A DNA stretch of 64,000 nt from NCBI RefSeq assembly GCF_003293675.1, contig NZ_CP029984.1:308040-372039 (forward strand). Direction: 5' to 3'. The notes under the pieces were generated by a model. The model saw only the letters and a program-made list of their open reading frames with translations. It ran no database searches and was not told the origin of the DNA. Made by a program: the position numbers and the translations under genes. Source of the stretch: Gardnerella leopoldii (GTDB lineage Bacteria > Actinomycetota > Actinomycetes > Actinomycetales > Bifidobacteriaceae). This document shows positions 43,186-49,787 of the stretch, one piece after another (position 1 is the first letter of the stretch; each line of letters starts with the position of its first letter).

Positions 43186-43262
43186 CAATCGTGGCTTAGG
43201 ACAATTTTTAGACATTTTGTATAATCAAAGCACTATATTCCGTGATTGCATTTTCTGGAGAA
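43186..43262. mobile_element. IS3-family terminal fragment
   Basis: GGCTTAGGACAATTTTTAGACATTTTGT and the following 40 bases match the end of the IS3-type remnant at 58706. Only the terminal part is left. It lies just outside the satellite element's recombinase end. Confidence 0.55.
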
Positions 43263-43335
43263 AGATGATGAGTGAGACGAATGTAAGGCCAGTGCTTTAG
43301 GGGCATTCACTTAGGGATTTAATTCCTAAAAAATT

Positions 43336-43375
43336 ATCGGCGTAATCGGTATTACTACCGGCTACGCCGATTTTA
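43336..43375. terminator. Bidirectional terminator at the end of the satellite operon
   Basis: ATCGGCGTA / TACGCCGAT (9 bp) with an inner ATCGGT/ACCGG stem, followed by TTTTA. It overlaps the stop of the minus-strand recombinase. Confidence 0.75.
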
Positions 43376-45025
43376 CTTATGGAGTGGAATATCAACTGCA
43401 CCTATGTAATTCCACTGTATCCATATGGTTTGTTTCTTGGTTCTTGTACCTGCTACCTTTTCAGATTTTTCAACATAAATCTTATCTACAAAGGTTCGAA
43501 TGATCTCTGCATTAAGTTCTTGTATATCTGTGTATTGTCGTACTAATTTCAAGAAAGAATCCACGTTGAGACATTCCTCTTGCGCTTTAGAAATAAAGGC
43601 TTCAAGGGATTCAATCTTGCTTTTCAGTTCAGCTTGTTCCTTGTCGTAGGACTCAGACATGCTCTTAAATCGTTCATCAGAAATTTTACCGTCTAAGTTG
43701 TCTTCATAGAGATGCTGAACAATTGTGTCAAGTTTGCTAATTCTTGCTTTTGCTTGCTCGAGTTCCCTATTAGAGGACTTTAACTTTTGGGTTAGTTCTT
43801 TCTCGCTTTTCTTCATCACAAGTCCCACGAACTCTTCTTCGTGCTGTTTGGCAAATGAAGTAATCATTCGTAGCTCGTGAAGCAGTATTGCTTCGATCTG
43901 AATATTTCTAATTTGATGTGATGAGCATTTGCCTTTTTGCTTACGATATGTAGCACAGACAAAGTATTCTTTATCATGGCTCCAACCTTTTCCTCGAACC
44001 TGATAAAGCTTGTTACCACAATCCGCACAAAATAGCATTCCCGATAACACCGGCATCTCTCCAAGATTGGTACGCACTCGTCTACCATCTCTTATACGTT
44101 GAACAATATCAAAAGTTTCCTGGTCAATAATTGCTTCGTGTGTGTTTTTGAAAATTAGCCAGTCTTCTTTGGGATTCAATAATGTTTTCTTGCACTTGTA
44201 CGATTTCTTTCTTGTTTTGAAATTGACCGTATGCCCAAGATATTCTTGCTTTTCAAGCATATTAGAGATAGTTTTTTGATTCCAGACTCCCTTAATCTCC
44301 GATTTCGCGGAAGGAATTTTAATACCAAGAGAGAAAAAATGCTCAGAAGGTGTTGGAATATTCCTTTTGATTAGCTCATTGGCAATCTGGCTAGGCCCAT
44401 ACCCATTAACGCAGAGTCTAAAGATTTCACGCACTACACTGGCAGCTTCTTCATCTACAATCCAATGATTTTTATCTTCAGGATCCTTAAGATATCCGTA
44501 AGGAGGATTGATGCAGAGCGGCTTCCCACTTTGTCCTTTTGCTTTAAACACAGCTTTTATTTTTCTGCTTGTGTCTTTAGCATAAAACTCATTGAAGATG
44601 TTGATGAAAGGTGTCATGTCGTTGTCTGACTGATTATTGCTATCTACGCCGTTATTTATTGCAATAAAGCGAATATCAGCGTTAGGGAATACCATCTCTG
44701 TATACATACCAACTTGCAGATAATCTCTACCCAAGCGTGACATGTCCTTGACGATAATGGTTCCAATCTTTCCTTCGTCAATGAGAGCAGTTAATTTAAG
44801 CCAATCAGGTCGCTGGAAATTAGTACCCGAGTAGCCATCGTCTACAAAGAACATAAGATTGTTGAAATGATTATCCTCGGCATACTTTTTCAGCATGCTC
44901 TTTTGATTGATAATGGAATTGCTGTCACCTTGTAATTCATCGTCTTTGGATAAACGGCAGTAAAGTGCCGTTATCTTGCCTACATTATCTAGAGTATAAG
45001 AAGGCTGTCTATTTAGTTTATTCAT
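43373..45025 (-). CDS. Large serine recombinase (TndX/Tn1549-type) of the satellite element
   Basis: A 550-residue protein; ATG 45025 behind AAGGAGG is preferred over the in-frame start at 45055. The nucleophile is S26 in YCRLSKDDE. SRLGRDYLQVGMYTE, INPPYGYLKDPEDKNHWIVDEE, a zinc ribbon (LFCADCGNKLY...CATY...CSSH), a coiled coil and a C-terminal DUF4368-like end (VDKIYVEK...IQWNYIGAVDIP) identify the Tn1549/CTn5 recombinase group. It probably excises and integrates the element. TnpW follows upstream in the same operon, as in Tn1549-like elements. Confidence 0.93.
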   Translation of the reverse strand: MNKLNRQPSYTLDNVGKITALYCRLSKDDELQGDSNSIINQKSMLKKYAEDNHFNNLMFFVDDGYSGTNFQRPDWLKLTALIDEGKIGTIIVKDMSRLGRDYLQVGMYTEMVFPNADIRFIAINNGVDSNNQSDNDMTPFINIFNEFYAKDTSRKIKAVFKAKGQSGKPLCINPPYGYLKDPEDKNHWIVDEEAASVVREIFRLCVNGYGPSQIANELIKRNIPTPSEHFFSLGIKIPSAKSEIKGVWNQKTISNMLEKQEYLGHTVNFKTRKKSYKCKKTLLNPKEDWLIFKNTHEAIIDQETFDIVQRIRDGRRVRTNLGEMPVLSGMLFCADCGNKLYQVRGKGWSHDKEYFVCATYRKQKGKCSSHQIRNIQIEAILLHELRMITSFAKQHEEEFVGLVMKKSEKELTQKLKSSNRELEQAKARISKLDTIVQHLYEDNLDGKISDERFKSMSESYDKEQAELKSKIESLEAFISKAQEECLNVDSFLKLVRQYTDIQELNAEIIRTFVDKIYVEKSEKVAGTRTKKQTIWIQWNYIGAVDIPLHK

Positions 45026-45096
45026 CTGTTTTTCCTCCTTTCCGACAGCCTTCAAGCGGTCAGTATATATTCCCGTATAACTCAGAATTTATCAAG

Positions 45097-45264
45097 TTAT
45101 TTAGCTTCTATTACATGGTTTAAATTGCTTAAAATAAGGTGTTTGATTAGGTCTTTGACACCTTTCTGAGCACTCTTGCTTTCAAGAGAGTTAACCGTAA
45201 ATTCAGTATTTCCGATTCTTAACACTTCGGTTTTTACCGGTGTATCCTTAATTTGTTCATCCAT
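45097..45264 (-). CDS. tnpW: Transposon-encoded protein TnpW
   Basis: A 55-residue protein with ATG 45264 behind AAGGAGG. MDEQIKDTPVKTEVLRIGNTEFTVNS followed by a short Lys-rich helix matches the TnpW family found just upstream of Tn1549-type recombinases. Its function is unknown; its constant position suggests a role in regulation or direction of recombination. It links the capsid gene to the recombinase. Confidence 0.85.
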   Translation of the reverse strand: MDEQIKDTPVKTEVLRIGNTEFTVNSLESKSAQKGVKDLIKHLILSNLNHVIEAK

Positions 45265-48973: not shown

Positions 48974-49158
48974 ATTTGATCCTCCTTTTCTAGAAGGCTT
49001 ATCCCTTCTACATCACAGGCAAAAGAAAAAGCCGACTTTTTAACCTGTCTTAAAAAGTTTTTTTGGTCTTCTACTTGGTAGCCATGAAAGAGGGTGTAAT
49101 CTGACGGTTTTAGAAAAAATTTTTGACAATAAAAATCTCCTAAGCATTCATTAGGCAT
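48964..49158 (-). CDS. Possible leader ORF upstream of the primase
   Basis: A 64-codon frame that ends 10 bases inside the primase gene, so the two could be translationally coupled. No clear ribosome site precedes the ATG at 49158, and the first codons overlap the attenuator-like hairpin at 49136-49184. The product is Phe- and Lys-rich with no known domain. It may be a regulatory leader rather than a functional protein. Confidence 0.35.
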   Translation of the reverse strand: MPNECLGDFYCQKFFLKPSDYTLFHGYQVEDQKNFLRQVKKSAFSFACDVEGISLLEKEDQIWI

Positions 49159-49184
49159 TTGCCTTGAATGAATAGCAAAGGAGA
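49136..49184. promoter_or_regulatory. Attenuator-like hairpin upstream of the primase
   Basis: TCTCCTAAGCATTCATT pairs with AATGAATAGCAAAGGAGA around a small AGGCA/TGCCT stem. T-rich runs follow on both strands (CTTTTTT on +, TTTTTATT on -). On the minus strand it lies in the primase leader and could terminate transcription conditionally. Confidence 0.6.
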
Positions 49185-49284
49185 CTTTTTTAATCTGCTA
49201 TATTCCGGAGTGGCTAGCTCTTTATATCGTTGATATACTCACAGAATCGTGATAATATTTAACTATTAAAATAAGGAGGGAATT

Positions 49285-49497
49285 ATGGCTGTTAGTTATA
49301 AAAAACTATTACATCGCATGATTGAAGAAGATATTTCCAATCAGGACTTAATGAGAATGAGCAATATTTCCGCCAACATTATTACGAAACTACGCACTGG
49401 GCAATATATATCACTGGAAAAAGTGGAAGGTATCTGCACAGCTTTACACTGCACGCCCAACGATATTTTGGAATTTATAGCGGAGGATGAAAAGTAA
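49285..49497 (+). CDS. Cro/XRE-like regulator of the satellite element
   Basis: A 70-residue HTH protein with ATG 49285 behind AAGGAGGG. MAVSYKKLLHRMIEEDISNQDLMRMSNISANIITKLRTGQYISLEKVEGICTALHC is the YozG/Cro-like pattern. It is divergent from the primase operon, the usual place for the master regulator of phage satellites. The shared intergenic region carries the hairpin at 49136. The stop codon region overlaps the next ATG (GTAATGG). Confidence 0.85.
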   Translation: MAVSYKKLLHRMIEEDISNQDLMRMSNISANIITKLRTGQYISLEKVEGICTALHCTPNDILEFIAEDEK

Positions 49498-49787
49498 TGG
49501 CTAATAATCAAAAACTGGAACTTACGTGGCTTGGTAAGGATAAAGAAATCAAAATAGAGCCTAGGATTCTAGTTGAGGATAAAGAAAAATCAAACTGCAA
49601 AAATGATCCTAATACAGAAAACATGCTCATACATGGAGATAACCTACTCGCACTAAAAGCGTTAGAAAACAAATATGCAGGTAACCGCGATCACTTCTTC
49701 ATATTTGAAGTAAGTACCGTAGATGAGAATCCGCTAATCTATCATTATACATATAAGAAAACTACAATATATTTAGCAGAAAAATAG
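49497..49787 (+). pseudogene. Truncated DNA methyltransferase (Mod) gene
   Basis: The first about 63 codons (MANNQKLELTWLGKDKEIKIEPRI ... TENMLIHGDNLLALKAL) match the start of Mod-type site-specific DNA methyltransferases of type III R-M systems. After KYAG the homology stops, before the catalytic DPPY, and 33 unrelated codons lead to a stop. The gene was cut by the segment that carries the macrolide genes. It immediately follows the regulator, so Mod was probably cargo of the satellite. Confidence 0.8.

Follow-up and report, generated by a model that had tools for sequence, protein, structure and literature searches.

A probable phage satellite of Gardnerella leopoldii that combines a solo scaffold-free capsid gene with a phage-type packaging site

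Genes and boundaries of the element

The window analysed here is a stretch of 64,000 nucleotides from the vaginal bacterium Gardnerella leopoldii (contig NZ_CP029984.1, positions 308,040 to 372,039). It holds an integrated element of 13,623 bp (43295..56921, no strand assigned, from CTTT to CTTT), which is very probably an integrative phage satellite that is packaged from a cos-like site and whose solo capsid protein would redirect head assembly by way of helper heads. The five genes named in the original prediction for this locus were all found where it had placed them, as a minus-strand operon with a divergent regulator on the plus strand. The operon comprises a P4-family primase-helicase of 774 aa (46649..48973, minus strand; NrS-1 HBD, D5_N and Pox_D5 domains), an HK97-fold major capsid protein of 315 aa without scaffold domain (45283..46230, minus strand; PF05065, E = 6.7e-54; TIGR01554, E = 5.1e-59), a TnpW-like small protein of 55 aa (45097..45264, minus strand) and a TnpX-like large serine recombinase of 560 aa (43373..45055, minus strand; Resolvase, Recombinase, Zn_ribbon_recom and DUF4368 domains). 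The regulator is a Cro/C1-type protein of 70 aa (49285..49497, plus strand; HTH_26, E = 7.7e-17), and an open reading frame (ORF) of 64 aa beside the primase gene (48964..49158, minus strand) matched neither Pfam nor PHROG families. A putative cos-like packaging site (46283..46388, minus strand, with the polarity of both genes) lies between primase and capsid and was recognised by its homology to the intergenic site that separates the genes for an HNH endonuclease and the small terminase (TerS) in phages.

Both ends of the element were fixed by comparing its flanks with empty sites, a check that the original prediction had proposed; three occupied and three uninterrupted sites were available. 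In genome G001 (contig C1), window position 43298 is joined directly to position 56918, and CTTT is common to both flanks. The same element-free site is present in PSS_7772B (G003:C25) and GED7760B (G004:C2), where the element lies on another contig. The copy of PSS_7772B has the same flanks as the window copy, and the copies are 99.3–99.9% identical over 43.3–56.2 kb; in GED7760B (L010/L114) and in an IMG/VR record (L032/L113), the element sits at two other sites. The left end (43299..43325, plus strand) is an imperfect inverted repeat of the right end (about 56893–56917), the junctions being read by eye, and the target core is probably TT. The range first claimed, 43190..49787, is corrected by this comparison to 43,295–56,921, the right-hand 7 kb having been overlooked. 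As expected of a satellite, the element is integrated and mobile, and has no full structural set. When phage and plasmid collections were searched with its DNA, only the part from about 49682 on (the mef/msrD side) was matched.

The recombinase had been taken for a Tn1549-type enzyme. The Tn1549 integrase is a tyrosine integrase; the protein of the element carries serine recombinase domains, and its nearest solved structure is TnpX (2mhc, E = 7.6e-41). Given these two observations, the Tn1549 label was dropped. The TnpW-like protein adjoins the recombinase in a conserved neighbourhood; the window protein itself did not match the Pfam model, and its homologue at locus L016 scores above the cutoff of PF14202 (32.2 vs. 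25 bits). At the 3′ end of the primase gene, origin-like iterons (GTGGCA twice and TGCCAC twice) surround an AT-rich stretch (46576..46659, no strand assigned). Many related elements show comparable layouts with other letters after the primase (by eye), and a script found TGTAGCA pairs inverted around an AT-rich stretch at this place in L201/L203; no iterons were evident by eye after the primase in L011 and L034. We infer that the iterons act as an origin. Their layout resembles the primase-then-origin arrangement of phage-inducible chromosomal islands (PICIs), whose origin comes after the primase (PMC6092414).

The absence of a scaffold domain, also claimed at the outset, was borne out: a conserved Tyr column is preceded by 16 residues in the element capsid and by a median of 94 (68–112) in phage capsids, and about 78 N-terminal residues, i.e. 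the scaffold domain, are missing from the former. The HK97 fold is kept in an AlphaFold2 model (pLDDT 90.3, 120-row alignment), whose best fold matches include the capsids of RcGTA and of EcCI2, a capsid-forming PICI (cf-PICI). Within the family, the capsid shows dN/dS values of 0.05–0.28 in 9 pairs and is, judging by these ratios, under purifying selection, while evolving somewhat faster than the primase and the recombinase in most pairs. Ten short capsids form a single clade in the capsid tree (support 100/100, with long branches and uneven composition in some rows). In a set of 5.8 billion proteins, 734 matched the capsid at E = 1e-40 or better, and the 120 best listed of these are all 300–341 aa long. 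G. vaginalis PSS_7772B (L009) encodes an identical capsid protein (100%), and GED7760B (L010) one with 93% identity. Between the window and the latter, differences are concentrated in the 5′ half of the capsid gene (45750–46250), the primase being 99.9% identical, which suggests local recombination or selection. An encapsulin identity was ruled out by the Phage_capsid match, the adjoining cos-like site and the lack of an adjoining enzyme gene; encapsulins are HK97-fold shell proteins with an encapsulated cargo enzyme and without a packaging signal.

Related loci

Capsid searches yielded 103 loci, 23 of them on genome contigs and 80 on viral ones. Among these loci, clusters named by PHROGs as portal, large terminase and protease occur in 71, 58 and 52, respectively. 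On this gene content, the distant capsid relatives (about 31% identity) belong to ordinary phages, and the closer relatives differ. Whole genomes were then searched with an alignment of satellite capsids (A2). In the Peptoniphilus order, 16 short-frame capsids were found in 14 of 249 genomes (E ≤ 2.6e-98; open frames of 301–363 aa), the other capsid places having open frames of 391–438 aa, except for G128 (354 aa) and the partial G116 and G249:C12. In the family of the Blautia locus L011, 6 of 299 genomes have short capsids as well (one has a 401-aa frame and one runs off its contig), and so do 12 of 391 genomes of its class (E ≤ 1e-90; three of the 12 already counted, one place with an internal stop). 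Two of 189 Bifidobacteriaceae genomes carry one; by their coordinates these are Gardnerella PSS_7772B and GED7760B.

For the profile test, we assembled 31 loci, i.e. 19 newly retrieved places (up to 20 kb each) and 12 earlier loci. L032, L090 and L096 stand outside this set, L091, L199, L033 and L200 are under 8 kb, and the capsid places left out include G128:C1:4905 (354 aa), G492:C41 (363 aa), the edge or partial places of G482, G341, G477, G116 and G249:C12, and those new from the search of the Blautia L011 class. Some loci are near-copies of one another (L009, L010, L032 and the window; L033 and L090; L195 and L196), the capsid of L210 (G466) stands at a contig edge with no primase beside it, and L016 has a capsid fragment only. 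In these 31 loci, profiles matched the capsid in 29, the primase in 25, a large serine recombinase in 26, TnpW in 20, the Xre-type regulator (xre) in 10 and a tyrosine integrase in 3. Primase and capsid occur together in 25 loci, and 21 of these loci also have the large serine recombinase, 18 with the TnpW profile. A capsid never conserved with the recombinase and primase would have counted against the original prediction, and these 21 loci show otherwise. In L011, L012 and L034, the capsid–primase pair goes with a tyrosine integrase, and the contig of L208 ends before any integrase. Ten structural profiles (portal, large terminase TerL, protease, Ad1, Hc1, Neck1, tail terminator, major tail, tail and tape measure) matched none of the 31 loci over the stretch available. 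TerS was not among these ten, and L028 carries a small terminase. A prophage-like structural set in the relatives, which would have spoken for a deleted prophage, was thus not found among these profiles.

The primase of the element is 51–57% identical to those of L011, L013, L015 and L034. Different host genes follow the recombinase in the Peptoniphilus-order loci, and genome G139 has two near-identical copies (L195 and L196) with 11.9 kb in common. The family, also present in Clostridia, is real and recurrent; it is undescribed as far as our literature searches reach, which found no description of it and nothing on Gardnerella and satellites. Two observations concern other members. A second lineage (L028 and L091) combines a short capsid with serine recombinases, L028 having in addition the small terminase and a different primase. 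Conserved proteins lie between primase and capsid at L013:9091-9492 (133 aa) and L015:9551-9820 (89–99 aa); neither matched a Pfam family, the 133-aa protein matched no PHROG, and they could be packaging or assembly modulators.

The packaging site and the phages of the host group

The packaging-like site proposed between primase and capsid proved homologous to the HNH-to-TerS site of Gardnerella-type phages (the label refers to the genus of G001). Window positions 46279–46388 are 81–89% identical over 105–112 bp to a prophage in the same window, to four genomes of this genus and to virus record G002; in three of the four genomes, a phage-type capsid is encoded 8–11 kb away on the same contig. 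The prophage (1–29000) looks complete and is a candidate helper. It encodes an HNH endonuclease (1042..1401, plus strand; phrog_144, E = 8.4e-34), followed by its copy of the site (1403..1513, plus strand; 81% identity to that of the element) and by TerS (1562..2113, plus strand; phrog_83, E = 2.3e-36). Further on come TerL (5998–7590), the portal (7594–8847), the protease (10563–11306), a full-length major capsid protein of 398 aa (11297..12493, plus strand), the tape measure (16224–18791), a tail gene (19457–22276) and a serine integrase (25163–26770). The element capsid is 29% identical to that of the prophage over 274 residues. In phages that encode an HNH endonuclease, the cos site usually lies between this gene and that of the small terminase. 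The 161 bp around the prophage site are 98% identical to phage vB_Gva_AB1, in which the matching site stands between the annotated HNH and terminase genes. The element measures 13.6 kb and vB_Gva_AB1 50.3 kb; this phage is described as inducible by mitomycin in PMC7996455. As judged from its sequence, the element thus possesses a helper-like packaging signal, as a satellite should.

An iterated nhmmer model detects the site in satellites and phages alike; of the 25 loci that have primase and capsid, 20 carry it between these genes. Two copies per element, some of them inverted, were seen in L207, L208, L012 and L033. As a control, 34 satellite loci and the right part of the window were searched with a model built on phage rows alone (21 of them). 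It matched 32 of the 34 loci and the window element, and 31 of the 34, some of them near-copies, outscored all of 10 Markov shuffles (14.5 bits at most). The two loci in which this model found no site are L096, which starts inside the capsid gene, and L210, at a contig edge; L028 scored 11.5, and the second copy in L208 14.3.

The site also follows the phages of the host group. Sites of Gardnerella satellites have a mean identity of 0.724 to those of Gardnerella-type phages and of 0.445 to those of Peptoniphilus-group satellites (a group defined by kinship to G006 and by likeness of the elements), even though the window element and the P. duerdenii element L013 are 69% identical in the recombinase and 51% in the primase. 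Conversely, Peptoniphilus-group satellite sites reach 0.685 with the phages of their own group (0.682 when restricted to four phages from satellite-carrying genomes) and 0.465 with Gardnerella-type phages. For the window element, six Gardnerella-type phage sites rank 1–6 of 37. By these identities, the site follows the phages of its host group in the two groups compared, Gardnerella and the Peptoniphilus group. Packaging of the satellites by helper terminases would predict such tracking, which is otherwise hard to explain.

Several points weigh against packaging by local helpers. The site is upstream of the primase in L011 and L034, inverted past the capsid in L206 and L208, and weak in L012. 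The iterated model, which contains satellites, had served to gather the phage rows of the control, so that only 20 newly retrieved phage regions are independent of it. These regions themselves speak for the site: 17 of the 20 carry it, preceded by an HNH-like ORF in 16 of the 17 and followed by a TerS-like ORF in 14 (by eye), and L221, L234 and L224 (1.7 kb only) show none at E = 0.01. L221 is the own-genome phage of L203. The phage of the same genome is not consistently the best match, its rank out of 37 being 9 for L013, 2 and 7 for L194, 7 for L195/L196, 2 for L201 and 20 for L204, and a same-genome pairing of packaging sites was rejected on these ranks. Sites of L199, L200 and L209 are nearest to those of Gardnerella-type phages despite other hosts. 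In the Peptoniphilus order, prophages of the same capsid family occur in 7 of 14 satellite genomes vs. 43 of 235 others (P = 0.0097); in the family of Blautia L011, the figures are 0 of 6 vs. 25 of 293, three of these 25 genomes having only short or partial frames. Co-occurrence is thus inconsistent. Lastly, the capsid homologue Ccm of satellite SaPIbov5 has a delta domain, which the element capsid lacks.

Known systems, competing readings and cargo

The closest likeness is to cos-type Staphylococcus aureus pathogenicity islands (SaPIs). In PMC5052747 and PMC8569155, SaPIbov5 is a cos satellite of ~14 kb that carries a phage cos and has helpers of 42–45 kb, and its Ccm is a capsid homologue, 24% identical to that of the helper, located at the pentamers of a T=4 shell. 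Going by these descriptions, the element resembles them in its size of 13.6 kb, its phage-type cos-like site, its HK97-fold capsid homologue and its cargo genes, i.e. it pairs a satellite capsid homologue with a cos site common with phages; it differs from SaPIbov5 in its TnpX/TnpW-type recombination module. Among 8 sequence matches of the capsid, no entry was named SaPIbov5 or Ccm; the structure search gave a fold match to 7rwz at rank 50 (15% identity). Gram-positive PICIs, as described in PMC6092414, have a divergent regulator, a primase, a size of 12–15 kb, in some cases a phage cos, and cargo. The element likewise holds an integrase, a replication module and a divergent regulator within 12–15 kb; it differs in that its integrase is a serine recombinase accompanied by TnpW, and in that it has a capsid gene where the same source describes PICIs as having no structural genes. 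The cf-PICIs encode protease, portal, connectors, TerS, TerL and HNH (PMC10690885). Of such a head and packaging set (e.g. that of EcCI2), the element has only the capsid: no scanned gene of the element matched TerS or HNH. Membership of the cf-PICIs was rejected, the portal, protease, connector and TerL profiles matching none of the 31 loci. With TnpX/Tn4451-type elements, the element shares the module of a TnpX-like large serine recombinase and TnpW. Those elements have transposon cargo where the element has satellite replication and packaging modules. VEIMEs and tycheposons, satellite-like integrative elements of marine bacteria, can be likened to it from the descriptions available in PMC11389934 and PMC10803314; a serine integrase of PLE, looked for in PMC7567579, is not stated there.

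Thus the capsid-encoding satellite first proposed is upheld by a primase–capsid–integrase core, the lack of a structural set and a phage-like packaging site. Because it has both its own cut-down capsid gene and a copy of their packaging signal, the element most likely spreads by hijacking local phages, and its packaging by a helper is strongly implied by these features. Upon induction or infection by a helper, the TnpX-like recombinase would excise the element, which would then replicate with its own primase. The HNH, TerS and TerL proteins of the helper would recognise the common site and load the element into heads that combine portal and capsid of the helper with the scaffold-free capsid protein of the element. 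The latter would most likely co-assemble, e.g. at pentamers as does Ccm of SaPIbov5, and shift assembly towards a small head with room for 12–14 kb, from which the helper of about 50 kb would be excluded. In turn, the cargo would protect the host against other phages.

The competing readings differ mainly in what they make of the capsid and of the site. One possibility, which we consider doubtful, is that the element capsid alone, without scaffold or protease, forms a whole small head around a helper portal. The element has no portal gene of its own, and Ccm alone makes no capsids according to PMC8569155. We are equally tentative about a broader proposal, that of an undescribed cos-packaged family extending from Clostridia to Gardnerella, in which a permanently scaffold-free solo capsid would build a complete small shell around a helper portal and the packaging site would be re-acquired from the phages of each new host. 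It is unlikely that the capsid is instead a weapon, a dominant-negative decoy that poisons helper assembly, with the element moving chiefly by TnpX-type transposition. Defence cargo is common among the elements examined, and the somewhat faster evolution of the capsid would fit an arms race, but the conserved cos-like site that follows the phages of the host group would be left unexplained. Even less probable is a role of the common 105-bp site as an origin or regulatory element of phages and satellites, given its location between HNH and TerS in phages and the origin-like iterons that form a separate feature. The lone capsid gene beside an integrase and a primase could recall a prophage stripped of its other structural genes, a reading rejected as very improbable on the separate clade of the ten short capsids, the compact gene order repeated with open frames in many genomes, dN/dS well below 1 and the absence of structural profile matches in the 31 loci.

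If the element is a helper-packaged satellite, the satellites of human-associated anaerobes include a further, recurrent family, and a short HK97 capsid with a primase and no portal offers a simple search signature for more. The difference in packaging site between satellite lineages makes adaptation to helpers directly testable. A phage route would also be possible for restriction systems, abortive-infection genes and, in the window copy, a macrolide-resistance cassette. If true, packaging served by a scaffold-free capsid would be relevant to the question of what sets the size of phage heads.

The cargo lies past the regulator. A hybrid ORF (49497..49787, plus strand) begins like what is presumably a type III modification methylase and ends with a DUF5960-like tail from the mef/msrD region (residues 61–89, just under cutoff). 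The macrolide-resistance insertion follows, with msr(D) and mef(A) (49905..52706, minus strand); its mef(A) frame is split in the window and intact in L009 and L010, and its msr(D) end matches resistance elements in streptococcal phages. Beyond it are the C-terminal part of the type I restriction subunit HsdR (53889..55787, plus strand) and an AbiTii abortive-infection gene (55832..56776, plus strand; Pfam AbiTii, E = 4.1e-48; PADLOC, E = 8.1e-50). A remnant of the element in G001:C4 (L122) yielded no capsid or recombinase match. It retains the regulator and the right end of the element, together with a frame that looks HsdM-like, a stretch of masked letters, HsdR-like sequence and AbiTii sequence. 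Because the remnant holds these HsdM-like, HsdR-like and AbiTii sequences, it suggests that the cargo was once a restriction system, later disrupted by the mef/msrD insertion. Related loci carry variable cargo past the regulator, often restriction: FokI-type restriction with an OLD/GajA-like nuclease in L013, a methylase–Mrr fusion in L015, a DNA methylase in L011, a type I system in L203, type I methylase and specificity genes in L205 and, by sequence look, a transporter with a two-component system in L195/L196.

Further features were noted in the window. Rfam sRNA_1300 lies at 52767–52997, just past the mef(A)/msr(D) cassette. An ORF of 858 aa (38379–40955) has ABC-transporter-like regions and appears to consist of fused halves. 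A dispersed repeat of about 200–280 bp is located at 28854–33179; further copies directly adjoin the element in L010 and occur at other places in L001, L009 and L032.

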